A program made the position numbers and the translations under genes. Shown here piece by piece: positions 31,415 through 45,534 of a stretch of DNA of 64,000 nt. The notes under the pieces were generated by a model that had not been told where the DNA came from, searched no databases, and saw only the letters and a program-made list of their open reading frames with translations. Source of the stretch: Spongiibacter marinus (lineage in GTDB: Bacteria; Pseudomonadota; Gammaproteobacteria; Pseudomonadales; Spongiibacteraceae). The stretch is from the NCBI RefSeq assembly GCF_016906995.1, contig NZ_JAFBBD010000004.1, positions 248,001 to 312,000 of the forward strand, read 5' to 3'. Numbering within the stretch: position 1 is the first letter of the stretch; every line of letters begins with the position of its first letter.

Positions 31415-32188
31415 TTAGCGAATAGTCCAGCCACCGTCGATGACCATTTCCTGGCCGGTCATATTTCGCGCCGCATCACTGAGCAAGAAATTCATCGCGC
31501 CGCATAGTTCATCCATGTCGATGAAGCTCTTTTTGGGCATTGGCTCGAGCATAATTTTATTGATCACCTCATCCTCGGAAATACCGTGCGCCAGGGCCTG
31601 ACTGCTGATTTGCTTTTGCACCAGCGCTGTCTTTACGTAGGACGGGCACAGAGTGTTAATGGTGATATCACAATCTGCGGTTTCCAGCGCGACGGTTTTG
31701 GAAAAGCCCAACAAACCGTGCTTAGCCGCCACGTACGCGCTCTTATGGGGCGACGCCACCAGCGAGTGGATGGAGCCCACATTGACGATACGGCCAAAGT
31801 TTCGCGCTCGCATACTCGGTAATACGGCGCGACTCAGCAGGGCTGGGCCGACCAATAAAATCTCTGTTAACAATTTCCAGCGGTCGACGGGAAAGTCCTC
31901 CAAGGAGGCAACGTGTTGAATGCCCGCATTATTAATGAGTACATCGACGCCGCCCCATTCGTTCTCCAAACGCGATACCGCACCGCTGATGTGCTCTTGG
32001 TTGGTAACATCCAGCGGCAGGGCCAATACCTCAGCCGCCGCCCCGTTCAGTGACTGCGCAGCGCTAGTAACCGCTTGTTCGTCAGCGTCAGTTAGGCAAA
32101 CTCGAAAGCCTTGTTTCGATAAATCAGCCGCAAGGGCCAGCCCAATGCCGCTGGCCGCGCCGGTAACTAACGCTGTTTTGTGTCGCAT
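31415..32188 (-). CDS. 3-hydroxybutyrate dehydrogenase (SDR)
   Basis: This 257-residue short-chain dehydrogenase has TGAASGIG (residues 9-16) and NNAG. The catalytic residues are Ser139, Tyr152 and Lys156. The four residues that bind hydroxybutyrate carboxylate in characterised enzymes are also present: Gln91 (NNAGIQHVASLEDFP), His141, Lys149 and Gln193. This makes D-3-hydroxybutyrate oxidation to acetoacetate a strong prediction. It is 21 bp downstream of the TetR gene on the same strand and very likely co-regulated with it. Confidence 0.92.
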   Translation of the reverse strand: MRHKTALVTGAASGIGLALAADLSKQGFRVCLTDADEQAVTSAAQSLNGAAAEVLALPLDVTNQEHISGAVSRLENEWGGVDVLINNAGIQHVASLEDFPVDRWKLLTEILLVGPALLSRAVLPSMRARNFGRIVNVGSIHSLVASPHKSAYVAAKHGLLGFSKTVALETADCDITINTLCPSYVKTALVQKQISSQALAHGISEDEVINKIMLEPMPKKSFIDMDELCGAMNFLLSDAARNMTGQEMVIDGGWTIR

Positions 32189-32863: not shown

Positions 32864-32951
32864 TGTGCCACCCAGTTTTTCTAACACTGCAAATTGCCCG
32901 CTGCAGTGTTCGCGTTTGCTTGTGATGTAGACAGTGTTTTGCCACCGCTTG

Positions 32952-32975
32952 TATATTCAACGCTTGTTGAATATA
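32952..32975. promoter_or_regulatory. Operator palindrome between TetR and symporter genes
   Basis: Perfect inverted repeat: arms TATATTCAAC and GTTGAATATA around GCTT. It lies 88 bp from the TetR start and 38 bp before the symporter start. The core TTCAAC-N4-GTTGAA recurs twice before the TonB receptor (34499 and 34531). Such a site at a divergent tetR promoter is the usual operator arrangement. Confidence 0.8.
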
Positions 32976-33013
32976 GTGGCTCACCAATAAATAAAATACA
33001 AGGCGGATGGTAC

Positions 33014-34450
33014 ATGATATCGACAGAGGTCTTTAAATATGTGCTGACTGGTGGCTATGTTGCACTGGTCTACTGGCTCTCCTGGATAGGCATGCGCCGC
33101 ACGCAGGACATTAGCGGCTTCGCCATCGGCAACAAAGATATGAGCCCCTATATCATCGGCATTACGCTTGCAGCCTCGATCGCCTCCACGGCGACCTTTG
33201 TTATCAATCCCGGCTTTGTTTATGTGCACGGCGTTTCTGCCTATATGCACTACGCCGTCGCGGGGTCGGCCGGTATTCTTAGCGCATTCTTGGTCTTGTC
33301 ACGCGGCTTCTTGCGCCTTGGCGAAGAGAAGCAGGCACTGACGCTTCCAGACTGGATATACCACCGCTACCAACACCGCGGCTTCAGTCTGTTTTTCGCC
33401 TTTATTAATTTATTATCGGTGAGCTTCGTGGTGCTCATTCTGGTCGGTTGCAGTCTGTTAATGACGGGCATCTTCCCTATCGAGCAAAAGCCAGCGTTGG
33501 TCATTGTGTTGCTGTTTGTATTCTCTTATGTGCTGATGGGCGGCACCTATGCCCACGCCTACACCAACACCTTGCAAGGCATAATGATGATCGTGGTCAC
33601 CCTGCTGCTATTCGCCCAGGGCGCGGACTATTTCAACGGCGATTTCTTATCCTCGCTGCGCGATATTGGCGAAGGCTACGCCGCGGTAATGAACACCGAC
33701 AGCAATCTTTACTACGATTTTTTCTCGGTTTTCGGCGCGGGTTTTATCATCACCTTTGCACTGATGTTGCAGCCACATATTCTCACTAAAGTGCTGTATT
33801 TACGCAGTGAAGCGGACATCGGCAAATTCATTGGCACCACGGTTGTGGTCGGCACGCTGTTCACGCTTATTCTCATGGTCGGCCTTTACGCGCGACTCGA
33901 CGGCTTGGAGATCAGCGCGCAAGACACCGTCGTTCGCGAATACCTGTTGCATCAATTTAGTGGCAGTGTGGTCGGCGAGCTGACATTGACGTTTATTTTT
34001 ATCACCCTGCTCGCTGCGGGGATGAGCACCCTCGACGGCATTCTTGTCTCGCTCTCTGCAATGGTGGTCAATGATATTGTTTCCCCGCTGAGCAAAAACC
34101 GCAGCAAGGGCCTGGCCTGGTCCCGCTGGACCCTGATTATGGTGGGAATCATTGGCTTAACCCTCGCCTGGAATCCACCTCCCTTAATCGGTTTATTCGC
34201 CCAGAAAGGTGTTTATGGTTTAGCGGCGGCGTCACTCGTGCCGATGCTATTTGGCGTGTTGTTTCGCGGCAGTTTACCGCTACCGTTGATCGCCAGCGCA
34301 TCGATCAGCGCGCTGCTTATCCACTTTTATCTCAACCTCTTTGGCGGCATTGCCAACCCCGCCGTGTCGGCGAGCTATGCCATTTTAACGTCCATCGCCT
34401 ACGTGCTACTCGGCCTGGCTTACTTACGTATTCGCAACGCGAAAAACTAA
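33014..34450 (+). CDS. Sodium:solute symporter (SSS family)
   Basis: The start is the ATG at 33014 (MISTEVFKYVLTGGYVALVYWLSWIGMRRTQDISGFAIGNKDMSPYIIGITLAASIASTATFV), giving 478 residues. At least 12 hydrophobic helices are visible, with SSS features such as the N-terminal GxxxxxxxSTATF region and LAAGMSTLDGILVSLSAMVVNDI. It imports an organic solute with Na+. Context (hydroxybutyrate dehydrogenase, TonB receptor, hydrolase) suggests a short hydroxy or keto acid. The upstream in-frame extension contains the operator and is not translated in my view. Confidence 0.9.
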   Translation: MISTEVFKYVLTGGYVALVYWLSWIGMRRTQDISGFAIGNKDMSPYIIGITLAASIASTATFVINPGFVYVHGVSAYMHYAVAGSAGILSAFLVLSRGFLRLGEEKQALTLPDWIYHRYQHRGFSLFFAFINLLSVSFVVLILVGCSLLMTGIFPIEQKPALVIVLLFVFSYVLMGGTYAHAYTNTLQGIMMIVVTLLLFAQGADYFNGDFLSSLRDIGEGYAAVMNTDSNLYYDFFSVFGAGFIITFALMLQPHILTKVLYLRSEADIGKFIGTTVVVGTLFTLILMVGLYARLDGLEISAQDTVVREYLLHQFSGSVVGELTLTFIFITLLAAGMSTLDGILVSLSAMVVNDIVSPLSKNRSKGLAWSRWTLIMVGIIGLTLAWNPPPLIGLFAQKGVYGLAAASLVPMLFGVLFRGSLPLPLIASASISALLIHFYLNLFGGIANPAVSASYAILTSIAYVLLGLAYLRIRNAKN

Positions 34451-34498
34451 CTGGCCTCGCGCAGCGCGCCATACATAAGGAGAAAATTCATTTGACTT

Positions 34499-34514
34499 TT
34501 CAACAATCGTTGAA
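34499..34514. promoter_or_regulatory. Operator-like palindrome 1 before TonB receptor
   Basis: TTCAAC-AATC-GTTGAA, sharing both half-sites with the 32952 palindrome. Its centre is 32 bp from the next copy, close to three helical turns, which would place two repressor dimers on one face of the DNA. Confidence 0.7.
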
Positions 34515-34530
34515 TAACGTCGAAACTGAA

Positions 34531-34546
34531 TTCAACAAACGTTGAA
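34531..34546. promoter_or_regulatory. Operator-like palindrome 2 before TonB receptor
   Basis: TTCAAC-AAAC-GTTGAA, 74 bp before the receptor start codon. Same half-sites as the two other copies. Confidence 0.7.
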
Positions 34547-34620: not shown

Positions 34621-36918
34621 ATGATAAGTATAAAAAGTGACAAAAAGCCCCTCGCCGCCCTCATCGCCTTGTGCAGTGTCGCCGGCATTCATCAATCGGC
34701 ACTGGCCCAGCAGGCCGTCGCCCTGGAAGAAGTACTGGTTACCGCGCAAAAGCGTGAACAGAACCTCCAAGAGGTACCGGTATCGATCACCTCGCTCAAT
34801 GCACTGGAGCTGGAAAATAAAGGGATTACGTCCGTTACCGAACTGGAGAAAAATGTCCCCAACACGCAAATGCGCGCCAGCCGCGCCACCAACTCTACAC
34901 TCACTGCGTATATTCGCGGCGTGGGCCAACAGGATCCGCTGTGGGGGTTTGAACCCGGTGTCGGCGTGTATGTCGACGATGTTTACTACGCTCGCCCACA
35001 GGCAGCCGTGCTAGATGTCTTCGACGTTGAACGCATAGAAGTGCTGCGCGGCCCGCAAGGGACCCTGTATGGCAAAAACACCGTAGGCGGCGCGATCAAG
35101 TACATCACTCGCAGAATGACGGGCGATGCCGAAGCGAAGATCACCACTGCCGTTGGCGCCTACAACCAACGCGACATGATGCTGTCTGCACAGCTGCCAA
35201 TTCTCGACGAACAGCTCTATGTCGGTGCGGCCATTGCTAAACTCACTCGCGACGGTTTTGGCGACGTTGATACCGGCTATGACATCAACACCGGCACCTA
35301 TAGCAGCAGCCAGGAAAACTACAACAAGGATGTGCTTGTCGCACGCCTGAGCGCGGAATACACGCCAAGTGACCGGCTGTTTATTCGCGTCGCCGGCGAT
35401 CGCACCGATGACAACAGCAACCAGCGCTGCGGTTCACAGTCCAGCCCCACCGCCCTGACGCACCCCGCCAACGGCCAGCCGTTTGAACGCTCAAGCAACC
35501 CCTACGACGGCGCCTGCGGCACCACTCACAAATCCAATGTGGAGAACAGCGGCTTCTCCTTAACCGCCGAGTACGACTTGTCTGACAACGTGGTGGTGAA
35601 GTACATCTACGCCAACCGCGAAGGTGAAACCCAGCAGTTCATCGACTTTGACGGAACCCCGCTGGACGCCTTTGACGTACCCGCCAAGTACAGCGATGAG
35701 CAGGAGTCCCACGAGCTGCAATTTAACTACGGCAGCGGCCGTCTGGCCTTCGTCGGTGGCCTCTATTATTTCACCGGCAACTCAGCCGGTGCCTTCGACG
35801 TGGTACTCAATGGACTCGGCGGCACCCCATACATGGATGGCGACCACTACGATCTGGCGATCGGCGGTGATGTGGATACCACCAGCACCTCGGTCTACGC
35901 CAATGTGAACTATGACCTCAGCGACAGCCTGACCCTAACGGCCGGTATGCGCTGGACCAATGACGAAAAGAACTCAAACATTCAGCGCCTGGCGTATAAC
36001 ACCACTAACTCCTTCCCCTATAGCACGCAGCAGGGCTCCGGCTTCACCCACGGTGACCCGGCCAACGACACCTTGCTGGCAACCTTTACCGACATCAGCG
36101 ATAAAGACGCCGACAAAGACTGGAATGAGATTAGCCCCAGTATCAAGCTCGACTGGCAGATGAACGATGCCGTGATGTTCTATGTGAGCTATGCCGAAGG
36201 CTTTAAGTCCGGCGGCTTTGATATGCGCGGCGACGCCAGCAAAAACCCGGATATCGCCAAAGGCTACGATCCGGAAACCGTTGAGACCTGGGAACTCGGT
36301 GTTAAATCACAGCTGTGGAACGACCGCATTCGCCTTAACGCCACCGTTTTCGATATGGCCTATGACGACATGCAACTCACGGTGCAGACGGCCCAACCCG
36401 CACCGGTATTCTTCTCTTCTGACGTTGTGAACGCCGGTACCGCCGAGATACGCGGTGCAGAACTGGAGTCACTGCTGCAAATTACCGATGGCCTGAGCAG
36501 CTCTCTCGCACTGGGATACATGAATGCCGAGCTCACCGAGGTGCAGTCGGGCGGGCAGGATGTTTCCGACAGCTGGGAAATGCTCAATGCACCCAACTGG
36601 ACGGGCCAGTTTGCGCTGAATTATGAGAAGGACCTTGGCAACGCCGGTCGTATCGCCTTGAACAGCGCCCTGTCTTACCGCGATGCATCGCGCAACTTCA
36701 ACAACGTTGAGTGCAGCTGCGACCAGGACGAGTCCTATACCCTGCTCGACGCCAGTGCCAACTGGTACTCCGCCGACGAGCATTGGACGGTGAGTGTGTT
36801 TGTGAAAAACATCGAAGACAAGGAATACAAAACTGGTGGCTACAACCTCGCCTCAGGCGAGCTGGCATTCTACGGCGCGCCGCGCACCTGGACTGCCAGC
36901 GTCAGCTACGCCTTCTAA
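34621..36918 (+). CDS. TonB-dependent receptor
   Basis: This 765-residue protein has a signal peptide ending near LAQQAV (residue 30). The TonB box LEEVLVTAQKRE is at residues 35-46, then a plug domain (VPVSITSLNALELENKGI, YVDDVYYARPQ, VEVLRGPQGTLYGKNTVGG), and a 22-strand-type barrel ends in VSYAF. It is of the large proteobacterial receptor group used for complex organic compounds, not a classic siderophore receptor. It energises uptake across the outer membrane through TonB. It is downstream of two operator-like sites and upstream of an alpha/beta hydrolase with a terminator between. Confidence 0.95.
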   Translation: MISIKSDKKPLAALIALCSVAGIHQSALAQQAVALEEVLVTAQKREQNLQEVPVSITSLNALELENKGITSVTELEKNVPNTQMRASRATNSTLTAYIRGVGQQDPLWGFEPGVGVYVDDVYYARPQAAVLDVFDVERIEVLRGPQGTLYGKNTVGGAIKYITRRMTGDAEAKITTAVGAYNQRDMMLSAQLPILDEQLYVGAAIAKLTRDGFGDVDTGYDINTGTYSSSQENYNKDVLVARLSAEYTPSDRLFIRVAGDRTDDNSNQRCGSQSSPTALTHPANGQPFERSSNPYDGACGTTHKSNVENSGFSLTAEYDLSDNVVVKYIYANREGETQQFIDFDGTPLDAFDVPAKYSDEQESHELQFNYGSGRLAFVGGLYYFTGNSAGAFDVVLNGLGGTPYMDGDHYDLAIGGDVDTTSTSVYANVNYDLSDSLTLTAGMRWTNDEKNSNIQRLAYNTTNSFPYSTQQGSGFTHGDPANDTLLATFTDISDKDADKDWNEISPSIKLDWQMNDAVMFYVSYAEGFKSGGFDMRGDASKNPDIAKGYDPETVETWELGVKSQLWNDRIRLNATVFDMAYDDMQLTVQTAQPAPVFFSSDVVNAGTAEIRGAELESLLQITDGLSSSLALGYMNAELTEVQSGGQDVSDSWEMLNAPNWTGQFALNYEKDLGNAGRIALNSALSYRDASRNFNNVECSCDQDESYTLLDASANWYSADEHWTVSVFVKNIEDKEYKTGGYNLASGELAFYGAPRTWTASVSYAF

Positions 36919-36989: not shown

Positions 36990-37847
36990 ATGTCTAAAAA
37001 CTATAAAGACTATTGGTATACCAGTAGCGACGGACTGAAACTGTATGCAAGGGAATATGGCGATGAAAACGCAGACAGTATCATTTGTATTCCGGGACTA
37101 ACGCGAAGCTCAGCAGACTTTGCCCTGCTGTGCGAGGAGCTCTCGTCACACTACCACCTGCTCGCCGTTGACCTGCGCGGTCGCGGCCGCTCTGACTACG
37201 ACAGCAACCCAGACAACTACCAACCCGCCACCTATGCCGCCGATGTACTGGCGCTGATGGACGCCAAGCAATTGGACAGGGTGAAGCTGATCGGCACGTC
37301 GCTGGGCGGGCTAACCTCGATGATATTGTGCGCAACATCGGGTGCGCGCATCCGTGGCGCGGTGATTAACGACATCGGCCCCGAAGCCAACCCCGAAGGC
37401 ATTGCCCGTATTAAGGCCTATGTCTGTGCAAGTCCACCACCGGTTACCACCTGGCAGGAGGCTGTGCAGCGTACCCGCGATACGCAACAGCGTGAGTACC
37501 CGCTATTTAATGACGAGGACTGGCAAACCTTTACCCGCAACCTTTACGTGGAAAACAGCGACGGCCAGCCGGTATTGAACTACGACCCCAATATTGCTGT
37601 CCCCCTGCAAGCGGACAGCGACGGCATCCCCCCTGACCTGTGGCCCCTGTTTGAGGCCGCCGCCGCTACGCCAATGTTACTGTTGCGCGGCGAGTTGTCA
37701 GACTTGCTCAGCCGCGACTGTGTGGCGCGCATGCAAGCCATTAAACCCGATCTTCACGTCTTGGAGGTCGCCAATACCGGGCACGCACCCCTGCTAACCG
37801 AAACCGAATCGCTCACGGCCATTCGCGCGTTTTTGGCAGAGCAATAG
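36990..37847 (+). CDS. Alpha/beta-fold hydrolase
   Basis: The start is the ATG at 36990 (MSKNYKDYWYTSSDGLKLYAREYG), giving 285 residues; longer in-frame translation runs back into the receptor gene and is rejected. The nucleophile elbow is GTSLGG (about residue 103), with an HG-like oxyanion region CIPGLTRSS. The acid and base are likely Asp near SDLLSRD and His in NTGHAPLLTE. It is probably an esterase or lactonase. Position after the receptor suggests it cleaves the imported ester; that is inferred. Confidence 0.88.
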   Translation: MSKNYKDYWYTSSDGLKLYAREYGDENADSIICIPGLTRSSADFALLCEELSSHYHLLAVDLRGRGRSDYDSNPDNYQPATYAADVLALMDAKQLDRVKLIGTSLGGLTSMILCATSGARIRGAVINDIGPEANPEGIARIKAYVCASPPPVTTWQEAVQRTRDTQQREYPLFNDEDWQTFTRNLYVENSDGQPVLNYDPNIAVPLQADSDGIPPDLWPLFEAAAATPMLLLRGELSDLLSRDCVARMQAIKPDLHVLEVANTGHAPLLTETESLTAIRAFLAEQ

Positions 37848-39211: not shown

Positions 39212-40396
39212 TCAAAGGAAGAAGTCCGTGTTCGGCTGTCCCAGCATGGTAGCGCCCAAATTGCGGCCAAACTTGAAGGGGTTATTCGCAACGTGTTGGC
39301 GACCAGCATTAATATCCAACCACGCGCGATTGAGCGGGTGACCGCAGAAAATTCCCTGCGCGCCACAGGCGATGAAAAGCTCATTCACAGCATCAGCGCA
39401 CTTGCGGGAGATACTGGCAGCGTGGAAACGGCGCTGAATGCGTTGCTCAATGGCGGGCGTGTCACCGGCCTCGGCGGTATTCACAAAATACGCCAGATCA
39501 TCTTTGAGCATTACCCGGCACTCAGTAATTGCCGACACGGCATTGGCCAGTGCCATTTGCACATTGGGGTCTTTGGCTGCGCGTGCACCATCGTTCAAAC
39601 CCACGCGATTGCGATTCACCTCAACGTAGCTGTCCACCACGCCCTGCAAGGCACCAATGGACGAGCAGGCAACCGCGCGAGTGAAAATCTGGCCGAAGGG
39701 CAAACGGAAAATAGCATTGGTGTTTTCCTTACAACCCGGATTGTCGCCGCTAAAACCGTCCGCACTGCGGTGGGTGCGGTACTCAGGTACAAACACCGGT
39801 TCTTTGATCACGATGTCGTTCGAGCCCGTTCCCTGAAGGCCGCTCACATCCCAGTTATCGACGATGTCATAGTCGCCCAACGGCACCAAAAAAGTCCGGT
39901 AATCAGGGGCTTCGCCGTCGGCCGCGGGTGGCACCATGCCCCCCAAAAACGCCCACTTACAGTGTTTGGAACCCGAGGAAAAACCCCAGTGTCCAGAGAG
40001 CATATACCCTCCTTCGACACGTTTTACCTTACCCACTGGCATATATGAGGACGAGATCAACGTGGAATCGTCGTCGCCCCACACATCTTGCTGTGCGCGG
40101 TCGTCAAACATACCCAGCTGCCAATTGTGGATAGCGACTACGCCCAGTACCCACGCGGTCGACATACAGCCCTCGGCAAGGGTTTGCTGCACATCAAAAA
40201 ATTGCTGGGGAGGAAGCTCATAGCCGCCGTAGCGGGCGGGCTGCATAATCTTGAAAAATCCGCTGCGCTGCATCTCGGCAATGGTGGCATCCGGCAGGCG
40301 ACCCAGTGACGCTGCCTCGTCTTGACGCTCAAGCAGGGCGGGAACCATGGCGCGGGCGTCGAGCAACAGCTGTTTACTACGGTTAAAATCACTCAT
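39212..40396 (-). CDS. hsaA: HsaA-like flavin-dependent monooxygenase
   Basis: This 394-residue acyl-CoA-dehydrogenase-fold protein is of the two-component monooxygenase type. Motifs RYGGYELPPQQFFDVQQTLAEGCMSTAWVLGVVAIHNWQLGMFD, SGHWGFSSGSKHCKWAFLGG and WDVSGLQGTGSND fit HsaA/TesA2, the oxygenase that hydroxylates 3-HSA (the opened A-ring phenol of steroids) using reduced flavin from HsaB. No HsaB-like reductase is in the window. The ring-cleavage dioxygenase that would act next is 22 bp upstream. A related phenol hydroxylase is the main alternative. Confidence 0.8.
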   Translation of the reverse strand: MSDFNRSKQLLLDARAMVPALLERQDEAASLGRLPDATIAEMQRSGFFKIMQPARYGGYELPPQQFFDVQQTLAEGCMSTAWVLGVVAIHNWQLGMFDDRAQQDVWGDDDSTLISSSYMPVGKVKRVEGGYMLSGHWGFSSGSKHCKWAFLGGMVPPAADGEAPDYRTFLVPLGDYDIVDNWDVSGLQGTGSNDIVIKEPVFVPEYRTHRSADGFSGDNPGCKENTNAIFRLPFGQIFTRAVACSSIGALQGVVDSYVEVNRNRVGLNDGARAAKDPNVQMALANAVSAITECRVMLKDDLAYFVNTAEAGDTPAIEQRIQRRFHAASISRKCADAVNELFIACGAQGIFCGHPLNRAWLDINAGRQHVANNPFKFGRNLGATMLGQPNTDFFL

Positions 40397-40417
40397 TATT
40401 TTCTACCTCAATTCTTG

Positions 40418-41311
40418 CTAGTTGTCGGCGTGCTGCCAGTGATGGCCCCACTGTGAGGGGCGCGTACTAAAGGTGGGGCGGTAGTGCTGCCAATCCAGCT
40501 GCAATCCGCCGCAGCCAAACTCAATCGCAAAACCGCCTGGGCTATTTACATACACCGATACCATCTGGTCGTTGCAGTGTTTGCCCAGCGACGCGGCCAC
40601 ACCAACGTTGTGGCTGCGGCAACGGTCCATAAACAGTCCCAGTTGATCGAGGTCTGGCACCTCAAACATCAGGTGCACACAGCCACTCGCCGCCGGATTC
40701 GGGTCTTGGTAAATGGCCAGGCTGTGGTGCCGGGGGTTATCGACATGAAGAAAGTGCAGGCCCTGCTCGCCCAGCTGCATGGAATCGGTATACTCAAAAC
40801 CCAGCAGCCTGTGATAAAAATCGATACAGGCGTCGAACTCTCGGGTTGGCAACACATAGTGCCCCAGCCCCATGTCGCCGTTGAAGCCGGTTTCAAACGC
40901 GGGCACGCCGACCTCGCTTTGCAAGGCTAAACAGTCCAGCGCGCAGCTTTTCACCAGTTCAACTCGCTGACCGCTGGGGTCGTTAAGGGCCAGTCCGTCA
41001 CGTATTTTGCGCTGCGCACATGCCGCCTCGCTTAGGCGGCTGACGTGCACGCCCTGCTCGGCCAAACGTGTACTCAGTACCTCCAAGTCCTCATCGGCGG
41101 CAAGCTCCCAACCCGCTGTATGAAAGCGCTCACGCTCGCCGTGCACGACAGCCACTCGCCAGCAGTAAGCGTCCATTTTATAGAGGTCCCAGTCCGCCGA
41201 GCGACCCGCCGCCTGCAGGCCAACAACCTGCGTGAGAAAGTGCGCCCACTGGGCGGTGTCACGGGTCTCGATCAGCACATAACCGAGAGCATTAATGCGT
41301 GTCAGTGACAT
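40418..41311 (-). CDS. hsaC: HsaC/BphC-like extradiol dioxygenase
   Basis: This 297-residue two-domain VOC protein has Fe(II) ligands His151 (GLGHYVLP), His213 (CVHLMFEV) and Glu264 (FAIEFG). The catalytic His196 (RHHSLAIY) and Tyr254 are conserved as in BphC. It should cleave a catechol at the meta position; context points to the A-ring catechol 3,4-DHSA of steroid degradation. Its start overlaps the kshA stop by one base (TAATG). Confidence 0.88.
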   Translation of the reverse strand: MSLTRINALGYVLIETRDTAQWAHFLTQVVGLQAAGRSADWDLYKMDAYCWRVAVVHGERERFHTAGWELAADEDLEVLSTRLAEQGVHVSRLSEAACAQRKIRDGLALNDPSGQRVELVKSCALDCLALQSEVGVPAFETGFNGDMGLGHYVLPTREFDACIDFYHRLLGFEYTDSMQLGEQGLHFLHVDNPRHHSLAIYQDPNPAASGCVHLMFEVPDLDQLGLFMDRCRSHNVGVAASLGKHCNDQMVSVYVNSPGGFAIEFGCGGLQLDWQHYRPTFSTRPSQWGHHWQHADN

Positions 41312-42387
41312 TACTCTGACCCCACCTGAGCGTGGGGATACTTGATTCGCGTTTCGTGCTCTTTCAGCGCGGTGATGTTATCCGGGATGTCCGCAACGTC
41401 CATGTAGAACTGGCTGTACCACTTGCGCAGCATATTAATCGGGCCGTCGCCGTCGCACATTAGTGGGTTATCAATGCGAACTTTGTTGTTCCAAATTTCA
41501 ACGTCCTGCACGAAGGAGTCGACCGACATCTGCGTGTAGGCCTGCACTAAGGCGGTATTTTCCTCTTCACTCAGGCTGGGGTCTTTCTTAACCATGACGC
41601 CTAAGCGAATGATGAACTCCTCCATGTTTACCGGCACGTGGCTCACCAGCAGGTGGGTCGTGACTTCGCGCCCATCCATCGAACCGACCATGGTGGTGGT
41701 CATATACGCGGGCCCTTCGTAGGTCGCAACGGAGGTAAAGCCCTGGCCCTCGTCGGCCAGAATATCGTGACCACCCGACATCACCTGCGTGTAGGTGTGC
41801 CCGTCTTGAATGTTTTTGAAGGTCTGCACTTGGGAGTAGTGAACAGGGCCAAAGTGCGCCATATCGGCCATGTTATCGACCAGCTCACGGCAGTTGGAAT
41901 GAATGGTAAATTCGGCAATATTCCAATCTGACCACTCGCCAGAAAAATAATCACTGTTGCGGCGTGGACGCTGCTCGGGAATGGGTGGGTGCCCCTCCGG
42001 GTCGTGCCAGACAAAGGCGAGGCCGTTTTCTTCCATAACCGGCATCGAGGGAATCACTGCTTTCGGGGGAATACGGTCGGCATAGGGGATATCGTCACAC
42101 ACCCCATCGCCACCCCAGCTCCACTCATGGAAGGGGCAGCGCAGCGAGTTTCCGCACACTTTGCCACGGCTCAAGTCCGCCCCCATATGCGGGCAATACG
42201 AGCCGACGACATATAGCTCGCCGCTCTCCTCTCCCCGAAACGCAACCCATTTACTGCCAAAATAATTTAATGCCGTAGGCTCGCTGCCAAAACTGCTGGC
42301 TTTACCCAGACAATGCCAGCCCCTCGCGTAGCGCTCTGGCAGGGGCTTGGTTTCGATGATGTAGGGTTCGCGCAGGGGCTTGTTCAT
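41311..42387 (-). CDS. kshA: 3-ketosteroid 9-alpha-hydroxylase oxygenase KshA
   Basis: This is a 358-residue Rieske oxygenase. The Rieske ligands are Cys65, His67, Cys84 and His87 (CPHMGADLSRG...RCPFHEWSWGGDG). The catalytic iron site has His178, His183 and Asp295 (DNMADMAHFGPVHY; DSFVQDVEIWNNKVRIDNPL). The N-terminal PERYARGWHCLG and the C-terminal YSQFYMDVADI closely follow actinobacterial KshA. It hydroxylates C9 of 4-androstene-3,17-dione-type steroids, opening ring B. KshB reductase is not in the window. First gene of the operon; an operator-like palindrome lies 25 bp upstream. Confidence 0.9.
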   Translation of the reverse strand: MNKPLREPYIIETKPLPERYARGWHCLGKASSFGSEPTALNYFGSKWVAFRGEESGELYVVGSYCPHMGADLSRGKVCGNSLRCPFHEWSWGGDGVCDDIPYADRIPPKAVIPSMPVMEENGLAFVWHDPEGHPPIPEQRPRRNSDYFSGEWSDWNIAEFTIHSNCRELVDNMADMAHFGPVHYSQVQTFKNIQDGHTYTQVMSGGHDILADEGQGFTSVATYEGPAYMTTTMVGSMDGREVTTHLLVSHVPVNMEEFIIRLGVMVKKDPSLSEEENTALVQAYTQMSVDSFVQDVEIWNNKVRIDNPLMCDGDGPINMLRKWYSQFYMDVADIPDNITALKEHETRIKYPHAQVGSE

Positions 42388-43203: not shown

Positions 43204-45534
43204 CTACCAGTTAAAGCGCAGCGATCCGTATACCTGGCGTCCAGGGTTTTGCTGAGCATAGTAGGTTCCCGGGAACAGCACCGAGTCTATCACCTGATTC
43301 TGAGTGCGCTCATCGCTCGCATTCTTCACACCCACGGTGGCACTCCACCACTCATCTGCGCTGGCAAGCGACAGGCGCAAATTAAGCTTGGTGTTAGCAG
43401 GTACACGGGTGTTGTCGTCGAGGTCGACATCGGTGTATTGCTCACCTTGATGGATGATATCCGCCGCGATATTCACACTGAAGGCATCGCCCAGCGTAAA
43501 GTGCAGGCTGGGGCTCAGTGTCGCGCTCACTTCGGGGGCAAAGGCGATGCGCTCGCCACTGAGGTCCTGGCGCTGATCAATGCCATCCGTGACCGGCGCG
43601 GGCGCGCCTTGATACTCGTCGTAGCGCGCATCAAGCAAACCCAACGACCCCGACATTGACAGCGGCTCCCAAGGCGTCAGCCACTGCCAATCCACCTCCA
43701 GGCCCTGCGAGGTTGCCGTAGCGGCATTACTAACGTCGAAGAACACGCCATTAAATGCCAGGACCTGTAGGTCCTCAAACTCGGTGCGGTACAAGGTGGC
43801 ATTCACGCTGAGACTGCGGTCGAAGAAACGCCCCTTGATTCCCAGCTCCGCCGTGGTTGCATTTTCGTCGTCGAACTCAATGTCTTCGCCGGTGAACGAA
43901 ATAGCATTGAAACCGCCGCTTTTAAAACCGCGACTCACGGTTGCAAAGACATTGGTTTCTTCGCTCAGGTAGTACATAACAGAGAGTTTGGGCGACACGT
44001 CGCGTTCGTTACGCTCGAGCCCACGCTTGTTGTAGTCCTGGGTATCCAGTAACAGCGGCGTGACACAGGCCAACGCGGGCAGCATGGTGGTACTGCTACA
44101 GGCCGACTCTCCCAAACTATCAATGCGCTTGTCTTCGCGATTAAAGCGCAGCCCCGGTGTCACCACCCAGTTATCGCCAAGGCTCAAACTGAATTGACCA
44201 AACAGCGCCAGCGACTCGGTGTTTTGCAAGTAGTGAAAACGGAAATGGTCGTCGGTGGTTGTTTGCGCCAGTAGTCGTAGCGCGGGCAGCAAGATCGCAT
44301 CACTGCCTGCCATTTGTTGGGCGTCGTCGGTTCCCAGCCAGCTGCCGATGTCATCCCCTAATTGGAGCTTGGCATTAAGTTCGTAGTCCGACTCGAAGTA
44401 GAACAATCCAGCGACAAACTGCAGGTCATTCCCCAAGCCAAACAAGCTTTCGGCGTTACCCGTAAAGCGCCATTCCAAGGTGTCCTGACGGTAGTCCTCA
44501 CGGTTAAACAAGGTGAGCAGATCTGCCGGTGAAACATCCATATCCTGGTCTTGCTCAACAAAAAAATCGCTGCGCCCCAATACGGCAACCATATTCAAGT
44601 CGCGCAGTGCGCCAACTTCGCCAAAGCTGTATGACAACTTGGCGCTGTAGGTTGTTGACCCTTTCTCCAGCTCGCCGTCTCGGTTCATGCTAGTGGTGAA
44701 GTCTTCCGGGTCATCTTCAATATTGGCATCAAAGTCGGCCAGATAGTCGCGCGTATCCGCATCCAGTGCTTTTAGCTGCTTGGGCCAATAGGCCATTTCG
44801 GTTTGTGACTCCAGCGCAATGAGCTCGATCTCCATGGCGTCGCTGGGAACAAATAGCAGTTTTAAGCGCTGAGCATCCTGCTCAGAAGCCTCTTGGTCGC
44901 GCCCGCTAAACTGATTATGCAATTGGCCGTCGCGCTGGGTATCCATCGCGGCAAAACGAAGGCCGAACCAATCGTTGACCATGCCCCCTGCTCCCACCTC
45001 TACTCGCTGTTCGCCAAACTCGCCTGCGCGCAGCTCGGCGTTGGCGCTGAACGCCTCGGTGACGGGACGGCTGAATACGTTGAAAACACCTGACACGGTA
45101 TTCTTACCAAACAGCGTGCCCTGTGGGCCGCGTAACACTTCAACGCGACCGACATCAAACATACCTTCGGTAAAATAACCGGCCCGCCCCATAAACAGCT
45201 CGTCTTGCACAAGCCCCACGGAGCTTTCAAAACTCGGATTAAAGGTATTGGTACCGAAACCGCGAATAAAAATCTGCGGAGAACCTGGGTCGTTATCGTC
45301 CATGCGAACATTGGGAACAAAAACTGACAGCTCCTGCAAATCGCCGATTGCGGCATCCTGCATAAACTCGCCGTCGACAGCGGTCACCGAAATAGGCACG
45401 TCCTGCAGACTCTGCTCGGTTTTTTGCGCGGTGATAATCACTTCTTCCAAGACCCGCGACTGAGCCTGCACGACGCCAGCCGAGGCAATACCAACCATGC
45501 ACAGCAGAGGGCGAATAAATGCGGATTTCATCAA
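43204..45534 (-). CDS. TonB-dependent receptor
   Basis: This 776-residue protein has a signal peptide (to about AQSR, residue 27). The TonB box VLEEVIITAQKTEQ starts at residue 28, then a plug (VPISVTAVDGEFMQDAAIGDLQEL, GRVEVLRGPQGTLFGKNTVSG), and the barrel ends in YGSLRFNW. It resembles the first receptor in the window but is clearly a separate gene of the same group. Context (KshA operon on one side, FAD oxidoreductase and cytochrome on the other) suggests a hydrophobic substrate such as a steroid; this is inferred. Confidence 0.95.
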   Translation of the reverse strand: MMKSAFIRPLLCMVGIASAGVVQAQSRVLEEVIITAQKTEQSLQDVPISVTAVDGEFMQDAAIGDLQELSVFVPNVRMDDNDPGSPQIFIRGFGTNTFNPSFESSVGLVQDELFMGRAGYFTEGMFDVGRVEVLRGPQGTLFGKNTVSGVFNVFSRPVTEAFSANAELRAGEFGEQRVEVGAGGMVNDWFGLRFAAMDTQRDGQLHNQFSGRDQEASEQDAQRLKLLFVPSDAMEIELIALESQTEMAYWPKQLKALDADTRDYLADFDANIEDDPEDFTTSMNRDGELEKGSTTYSAKLSYSFGEVGALRDLNMVAVLGRSDFFVEQDQDMDVSPADLLTLFNREDYRQDTLEWRFTGNAESLFGLGNDLQFVAGLFYFESDYELNAKLQLGDDIGSWLGTDDAQQMAGSDAILLPALRLLAQTTTDDHFRFHYLQNTESLALFGQFSLSLGDNWVVTPGLRFNREDKRIDSLGESACSSTTMLPALACVTPLLLDTQDYNKRGLERNERDVSPKLSVMYYLSEETNVFATVSRGFKSGGFNAISFTGEDIEFDDENATTAELGIKGRFFDRSLSVNATLYRTEFEDLQVLAFNGVFFDVSNAATATSQGLEVDWQWLTPWEPLSMSGSLGLLDARYDEYQGAPAPVTDGIDQRQDLSGERIAFAPEVSATLSPSLHFTLGDAFSVNIAADIIHQGEQYTDVDLDDNTRVPANTKLNLRLSLASADEWWSATVGVKNASDERTQNQVIDSVLFPGTYYAQQNPGRQVYGSLRFNW

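Follow-up and report, generated by a model that had tools for sequence, protein, structure and literature searches.

Three exact copies of the palindrome TTCAAC-N4-GTTGAA, one in the divergent promoter of a TetR-family gene and two before a TonB-dependent receptor gene, lie in the 64,000-nucleotide stretch of DNA analysed here (the window). Judged from sequence, they are almost certainly operators of the TetR protein encoded beside them. In relatives the motif accompanies this TetR and precedes the same genes, and the regulon so defined is very probably common to several bacterial families. Its role is probably to let marine bacteria scavenge breakdown products of polyhydroxybutyrate (PHB), a natural bioplastic, a prediction drawn from the genes that it would control and from their company in related genomes.

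The palindrome and its TetR gene across genomes

A motif scan of the 3.57 Mb genome containing the window returned three exact copies, all three at the TetR locus (Table 1), where about 0.12 would be expected by chance per genome from the base composition of the window; the many unrelated genomic copies that would have refuted the first-pass annotation did not materialize. A control pattern with the motif read backwards occurs twice in the same genome, so that the number three is by itself modest, and the weight of the observation rests on the clustering of the copies and on their conservation. On the genome count, the control patterns and the low expectation, a chance origin of the three copies was ruled out. 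Allowing one mismatch adds seven copies in this genome, which look like background because the purine-N-N-pyrimidine spacer described below is absent from all seven. With two mismatches allowed, the window yields four matches against a shuffle mean of 2.03, a count that is not significant, as 19 of 100 shuffles reached at least four. The relaxed pattern TTCAWCRNNYGWTGAA, searched with one mismatch, hit five additional places in the genome.

The first-pass annotation had located the copies correctly and had given the right centre-to-centre distance of 32 bp for operators 2 and 3; its perfect 10+10 bp palindrome applies to operator 1 only, the other two being 6+6. Operator 1 is kept in seven aligned genomes, and in this alignment the arms and the promoter-like hexamers form the main invariant blocks, with varying flanks and N4.

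Table 1. Features of the TetR locus, in coordinates of the window
Feature	Position	Strand	Remarks
SDR, 3-hydroxybutyrate dehydrogenase family	31415..32188	-	same strand as tetR, 22 bp behind it
tetR, predicted TetR-family repressor, 217 aa	32210..32863	-	PF00440 and PF17939 TetR_C_30; likely start 32863
Symporter -35-like TTGTAT (3/6)	32949..32954	+	17 bp before the -10
Operator 1	32952..32975, core 32956-32971	no strand	perfect 10+10 palindrome TATATTCAAC-GCTT-GTTGAATATA, tetR/symporter divergent promoter
Symporter -10-like TATAGT (5/6)	32972..32977	+	overlaps operator 1 flank
Sodium:solute symporter (SSS)	33014..34450	+	PF00474
Receptor -35-like TTGACT (5/6)	34492..34497	+	from the seven-genome alignment and offset counts
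Operator 2	34499..34514	no strand	6+6, TTCAACAATCGTTGAA, within the presumed receptor promoter
Receptor -10-like TAACGT (3/6), weak	34515..34520	+	17 bp behind the -35
Operator 3	34531..34546	no strand	6+6, TTCAACAAACGTTGAA, 32 bp behind operator 2
TonB-dependent receptor	34621..36918	+	PF00593 and PF07715
Alpha/beta hydrolase, presumed esterase	36990..37847	+	PF00561

Within the family, a TetR orthologue at 80-100% identity is present in 6 of 21 genomes; exact copies occur in those six only, with 16 of 16 copies at the TetR locus, and a seventh family genome has only a 42% TetR relative and no copies. Across the order, TetR was matched at a threshold of 1e-30 in 36 of 390 genomes, and 27 of these 36 contain exact copies; for the 30 tetR-bearing genomes other than those six, the figures are 21 genomes and 53 of 56 copies at the tetR locus. 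The nine tetR-bearing genomes without copies comprise seven that share a genus label (f43 g44), G019, whose TetR has 42% identity, and G307. TetR was matched in G307 only over residues 113-212 (G307:C1:869321-869620), possibly a decayed locus, and the genome has no exact operator. Of the 354 genomes of the order in which TetR was not matched, 94 contain exact copies too, as expected for a 12-base motif across hundreds of genomes, though the number reaches three or four in at least six of them.

The same picture emerges from named loci, for which we took the best 80 of 142 relatives from a genome-collection scan. Of these best 80 of 142, 68 hold a total of 149 exact copies, and six control patterns (reversed arms, N3, N5 and others) gave none. 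The 12 loci without an exact copy are L094, which ends at a contig edge, L133, L134 and L139, which have one-mismatch copies, and eight loci of Alcanivoracaceae (L140, L143-L149). In the best 80 of 142, the spacer reads R-N-N-Y in 146 of the 149 copies, and the two bases flanking each side are mostly A/T; neither feature was part of the search pattern, and the extended motif, WWTTCAACRNNYGTTGAAWW, is longer than first noted. The nearest named record, Neomelitea salexigens DSM 19753 (L075), has an identical TetR, and Zhongshania antarctica is another named species in which the locus is present.

Positions relative to genes are equally regular. In the best 80 of 142 loci, a relaxed TTCAWCRNNYGWTGAA site is found close to the start of 53 of 57 receptor, 53 of 57 symporter, 59 of 70 tetR and 5 of 10 depolymerase genes, as against 0 of 41 hydrolase genes and 17 of 775 other ORFs. 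Gene classes were assigned at hand-set identity thresholds (tetR 50, SSS 45, TBDR 32 and ABH 40%), and the count left out ORFs starting at most 300 bp from a locus end; ORFs followed a longest-ORF rule, by which the depolymerases of L140 and L143 were mis-called, to be recovered by tblastn. The typical layout has one site between tetR and the symporter and a pair before the TonB receptor, most often 32 bp apart: among 59 pairs of neighbouring sites with a spacing below 70 bp (best 80 of 142), 20 are spaced by exactly 32 bp and 46 by 28-34 bp, about three helical turns. Where the receptor gene has been relocated or inverted (L061, L066, L067, L072), the paired sites accompany it. At L127 (5379-5692), where the receptor is likewise inverted, a lone third operator stands before CoA-ligase/hydrolase genes in addition to the pair at the receptor. 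The tetR of L154 (10001-10640) lies in two overlapping pieces of differing identity, which suggests a frameshift in the record.

Operator and regulator vary together. The palindrome is TTCATC-RNNY-GATGAA in seven Alcanivoracaceae loci, and hybrid operators occur in Microbulbifer, Aestuariicella, Pseudomaricurvus and a few others. Residue 51 of TetR is K or R in all 56 loci with only TTCAAC arms (best 80 of 142) and P in all eight that have a TTCATC/GATGAA site but lack a fully TTCAAC site; the 14 mixed loci have P in seven, V in four, K in two and N in one. Residue 33 varies with the operator in much the same way. This co-variation follows clades, and relatedness alone may explain it.

Genes and promoters of the predicted regulon

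The regulator has the helix-turn-helix of its family (PF00440, 44.0 bits, cut-off 24) and a TetR_C_30 domain (PF17939, 120.5 bits, cut-off 26.3), its start is backed by orthologues, and operator 1 provides the palindrome expected of the family in the gene's own divergent promoter. The SDR encoded behind it passes two 3-hydroxybutyrate dehydrogenase models (TIGR01963, 343.6 bits, cut-off 307.05; NF009093, 312.3, cut-off 258) and stays below a third (NF009931, 263.5 vs 340), and hydroxybutyrate dehydrogenases fill the top 13 rows of its PDB search; the SDR belongs to this family, and its activity is predicted. The transported substrates are less readily named: the best named NCBIfam model for the symporter, panF, scores 93.6 bits and does not reach its cut-off of 328, leaving no substrate-specific match, and the TonB receptor matches no NCBIfam receptor model at its cut-off.

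The alpha/beta hydrolase has as its top PDB relative 3bwx (225 bits), of unnamed function, followed by the poly(3-hydroxybutyrate) depolymerase 8ynv, at 50.5 bits over residues 12-121. It fails the model for intracellular short-chain PHA depolymerases (NF050089, 67.1 bits vs 300) and reaches no substrate-specific one. The gene lies behind that of the receptor and is part of the regulated unit, probably co-transcribed with the receptor gene; in none of 41 orthologues (best 80 of 142 loci) does it have a separate operator.

That a TetR regulon spans dehydrogenase, symporter and receptor, as the first-pass annotation proposed, agrees with the comparative evidence, motif and TetR travelling together. 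For the dehydrogenase this needs refinement: with a threshold of 40% identity, only 11 of the best 80 of 142 loci have a linked 3-hydroxybutyrate dehydrogenase. Most Halieaceae loci have neither dehydrogenase nor depolymerase, and carry a CoA-ligase-like gene in their place.

HsaA-, HsaC- and KshA-like genes of steroid ring degradation adjoin the regulon (39212-42387) and have no exact operator copies; the HsaA-like match in the window scores 378.5 bits, and the KshA C-terminal domain is also matched. Near them is a second TonB-receptor-like ORF of 776 aa (43204-45534, minus strand), likewise lacking an exact operator.

Both intergenic regions have recurrent promoter-like hexamers at fixed offsets from the operators. 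At symporter sites, at least four of the six bases of TTGACA are found at the proposed offset in 30 of 63 cases, against 0-4 of 63 for the other nine offsets tried, and 29 of the 63 related sites have TAnnnT at the -10 offset. For receptor promoters the TTGACA count is 29 of 38 loci at the exact offset and 0 of 38 at nine other offsets tried, and both hexamers, TTGACA-like and TAnnnT 17 bp on, stand at the exact offsets in 26 of 38. According to oriented logos and these counts, the upstream member of the receptor's operator pair fills the spacer of a TTGACA-17-TAnnnT promoter. A generic promoter scan, which found two promoters vs a shuffle mean of 2.1, misses both proposed promoters, the receptor -10 TAACGT being too weak for it, and offers instead TAGACA-18-TATATT at 32928-32957, whose -10 likewise overlaps operator 1. 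Because the upstream site of a receptor pair usually sits within the 17-bp spacer, occlusion of RNA polymerase is the natural reading of repression, and its position makes this the likely mechanism; operator 3 would, by its position, cover the presumed transcription start.

Association with PHB depolymerases

Secreted-type PHB depolymerases scoring above the cut-off of NF050058 are encoded in 48 of the 390 genomes of the order, and 12 of the 48 also have tetR; the co-occurrence (12 of 36 vs 36 of 354, p = 4e-4) is swayed by one genus, which supplies seven of the 12. The depolymerase lies at most 12 kb from tetR in eight of these 12 (G062, G098, G116, G196, G216, G241, G342 and G374). In the other four it is split from tetR by contig ends (G325), located elsewhere (G150) or placed on another contig (G007, G019). 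The distant depolymerase of G150 is preceded by an exact operator pair of its own, 37 bp apart. This pair (L158, 8707-10703) stands between the depolymerase gene and a divergent gene that by eye resembles a flavoprotein monooxygenase.

Among the best 80 of 142 loci, 13 have a secreted-type PHB depolymerase at most 10 kb from tetR; those of L085, L119, L135, L147 and L061, and that of L158 (beyond the 80), pass NF050058. A single cluster in L061 unites depolymerase, symporter, receptor, hydrolase, 3-hydroxybutyrate dehydrogenase and tetR, and in Microbulbifer L135 the receptor, hydrolase, thiolase-like, CoA-ligase-like and depolymerase genes are co-directional. In Alcanivoracaceae the depolymerase gene comes first, with tetR just behind on the same strand, and TTCATC-RNNY-GATGAA is found about 50-110 bp before the depolymerase in all seven loci that have both. 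Upstream of that palindrome by 22 bp, L140 and L143-L148 have a second, poorer half-site, TTCAACGGTTGTAGAG or a variant of it. In five of the 13 loci no relaxed operator directly precedes the depolymerase: L124 is truncated by the locus edge, and in L085, L087, L135 and L137 the depolymerase gene follows the receptor gene in the same orientation. For the depolymerase of L119 there are just two copies, one with a single mismatch and the other exact but with a spacer that breaks the R-N-N-Y rule.

The genome containing the window shows no match to the PHB depolymerase models NF050058, PF10503 and PF06850 at the thresholds used, and the PHB link therefore rests on relatives. For one of these lineages, expression has been described: in the available text of a 2020 report on Alcanivorax sp. 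24, the depolymerase ALC24_4107 is up by 6.8-7.4 log2 on PHB, PHBV and PES, is said also to degrade PES, PBS and PCL, and has immediately downstream a transcriptional regulator that, in the authors' view, could drive its induction (PMC7187450).

Candidate mechanism, rival readings and known systems

Taken jointly, the operators, repression by the TetR and a role in scavenging PHB products seem quite likely, an estimate placed at this level because the operator and role claims are not independent. Binding, repression, ligand, transport and hydrolysis enter the following model as proposals. The TetR would be a local repressor, sitting as a dimer on the palindrome WWTTCAACRNNYGTTGAAWW. Operator 1 would govern the divergent promoter, serving tetR and the dehydrogenase in one direction and the sodium symporter in the other, and operators 2 and 3, 32 bp apart on one face of the helix, would control the receptor and the hydrolase. 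With the first site of each promoter filling the -35/-10 spacer, bound repressor would exclude RNA polymerase until a breakdown product of PHB (3-hydroxybutyrate, an oligomer or a CoA ester) bound the C-terminal domain and released it. The first-pass annotation had listed 3-hydroxybutyrate and related compounds as candidate ligands, a suggestion that the PHB depolymerases linked to tetR support indirectly. The receptor could then import 3-hydroxybutyrate oligomers for the hydrolase to split, and the symporter could bring in monomer or short oligomers, the dehydrogenase yielding acetoacetate.

More broadly, and tentatively, we suggest that the locus may be one for polyester utilisation, in which a TonB receptor for 3-hydroxybutyrate oligomers, a symporter, an esterase and a dehydrogenase stand under one repressor. 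Some lineages would have kept a secreted depolymerase on the same operator; others, that of the window among them, would have lost it and would live on fragments made by their neighbours, and operator and regulator would have drifted jointly from TTCAAC to TTCATC arms. This full scenario is possible rather than probable.

The operators and the repressor could be real and the substrate another ester, a lactone or a hydroxy acid, the depolymerases then reflecting a wider use of aliphatic esters. Such a substrate would suit the sparse linkage of dehydrogenase (11) and depolymerase (13 of the best 80 of 142 loci), the missing substrate-specific matches for symporter, receptor and hydrolase, and the activity of the Alcanivorax depolymerase on PES, PBS and PCL, as given in the available text of PMC7187450. 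It seems rather unlikely, however, as PHB depolymerase and 3-hydroxybutyrate dehydrogenase are the only recurrent catabolic enzymes beside the regulon whose substrate family is clear, and a variant of the operator stands just before the depolymerase in seven loci. The close neighbourhood of HsaA-, HsaC- and KshA-like genes in the window raises the thought that the locus is part of steroid degradation, with the TetR as a KstR-like regulator. Yet the window has no exact operator besides the three, relatives of KshA, HsaA and HsaC occur in 2 of the best 80 of 142 tetR loci, namely the two nearest, and the KstR model NF033703 gives 21.5 bits vs a cut-off of 280; a steroid reading is hardly credible, and on the operator's absence from the steroid genes, the KstR score and this linkage we set a steroid regulon aside.

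Some TetR-family proteins act as activators, and two sites spaced by 32 bp could be bound cooperatively, as would befit an activator or dual regulator. In 26 of 38 receptor promoters, however, the operator lies between the two hexamers, where a bound protein normally blocks polymerase, which makes activation distinctly improbable here.

The analysis puts names to the operator, the regulator and the targets of a gene cluster found across several families of marine Gammaproteobacteria, and it offers a candidate regulator for the depolymerase that is reported to be strongly induced on PHB in Alcanivorax. Should the PHB reading be true, uptake of polyester oligomers across the outer membrane becomes testable, and scavengers can be distinguished from degraders, which bears on what becomes of PHA bioplastics in the sea. 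Together with its natural TTCATC variants, the operator is, moreover, a ready test of change in TetR DNA specificity.

Consistent with the first-pass annotation, which was aware of no published TetR regulon with this sequence, the open-access literature, with subscription papers mostly outside it, yielded no report of one, no TetR regulon combining a TonB receptor with PHB use, and no mention of a TonB receptor that takes 3-hydroxybutyrate oligomers as its substrate. The nearest named NCBIfam model is that of PsrA, a TetR-family regulator of fatty acid degradation in Pseudomonas and relatives (100.2 bits, residues 17-216), with which the window TetR shares the TetR_C_30 C-terminal domain class, by domain name only. 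The PsrA palindrome C/GAAACN2-4GTTTG/C, as it appears in the available text of PMC11233452, is of similar build, whereas the arms here are TTCAAC/GTTGAA in 149 copies. The window TetR also falls short of the NF053516 cut-off of 300, and there are no fatty acid beta-oxidation genes among the annotated recurrent neighbours of window-type tetR genes. Both the model cut-off and the operator motif led us to reject an identification with PsrA.

The regulator beside ALC24_4107 in Alcanivorax sp. 24 has the gene order of the Alcanivoracaceae orthologues studied here, and we infer that it is orthologous to the window TetR; the available text of the source gives no family for it and describes neither an operator nor a receptor/symporter regulon, and the main text does not mention TetR (PMC7187450).

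The PHB-binding regulators PhaR/AniA are likewise reported to couple transcription to PHB, theirs being the PHB stored in granules inside the cell. Polysaccharide utilisation loci combine a secreted depolymerase, a TonB receptor, a hydrolase and an inner-membrane transporter under one local regulator. A local TetR regulon is a known kind of system, and the logic of the locus analysed here is that of polysaccharide utilisation loci, with no sugar enzymes seen and with a polymer that would be a polyester.
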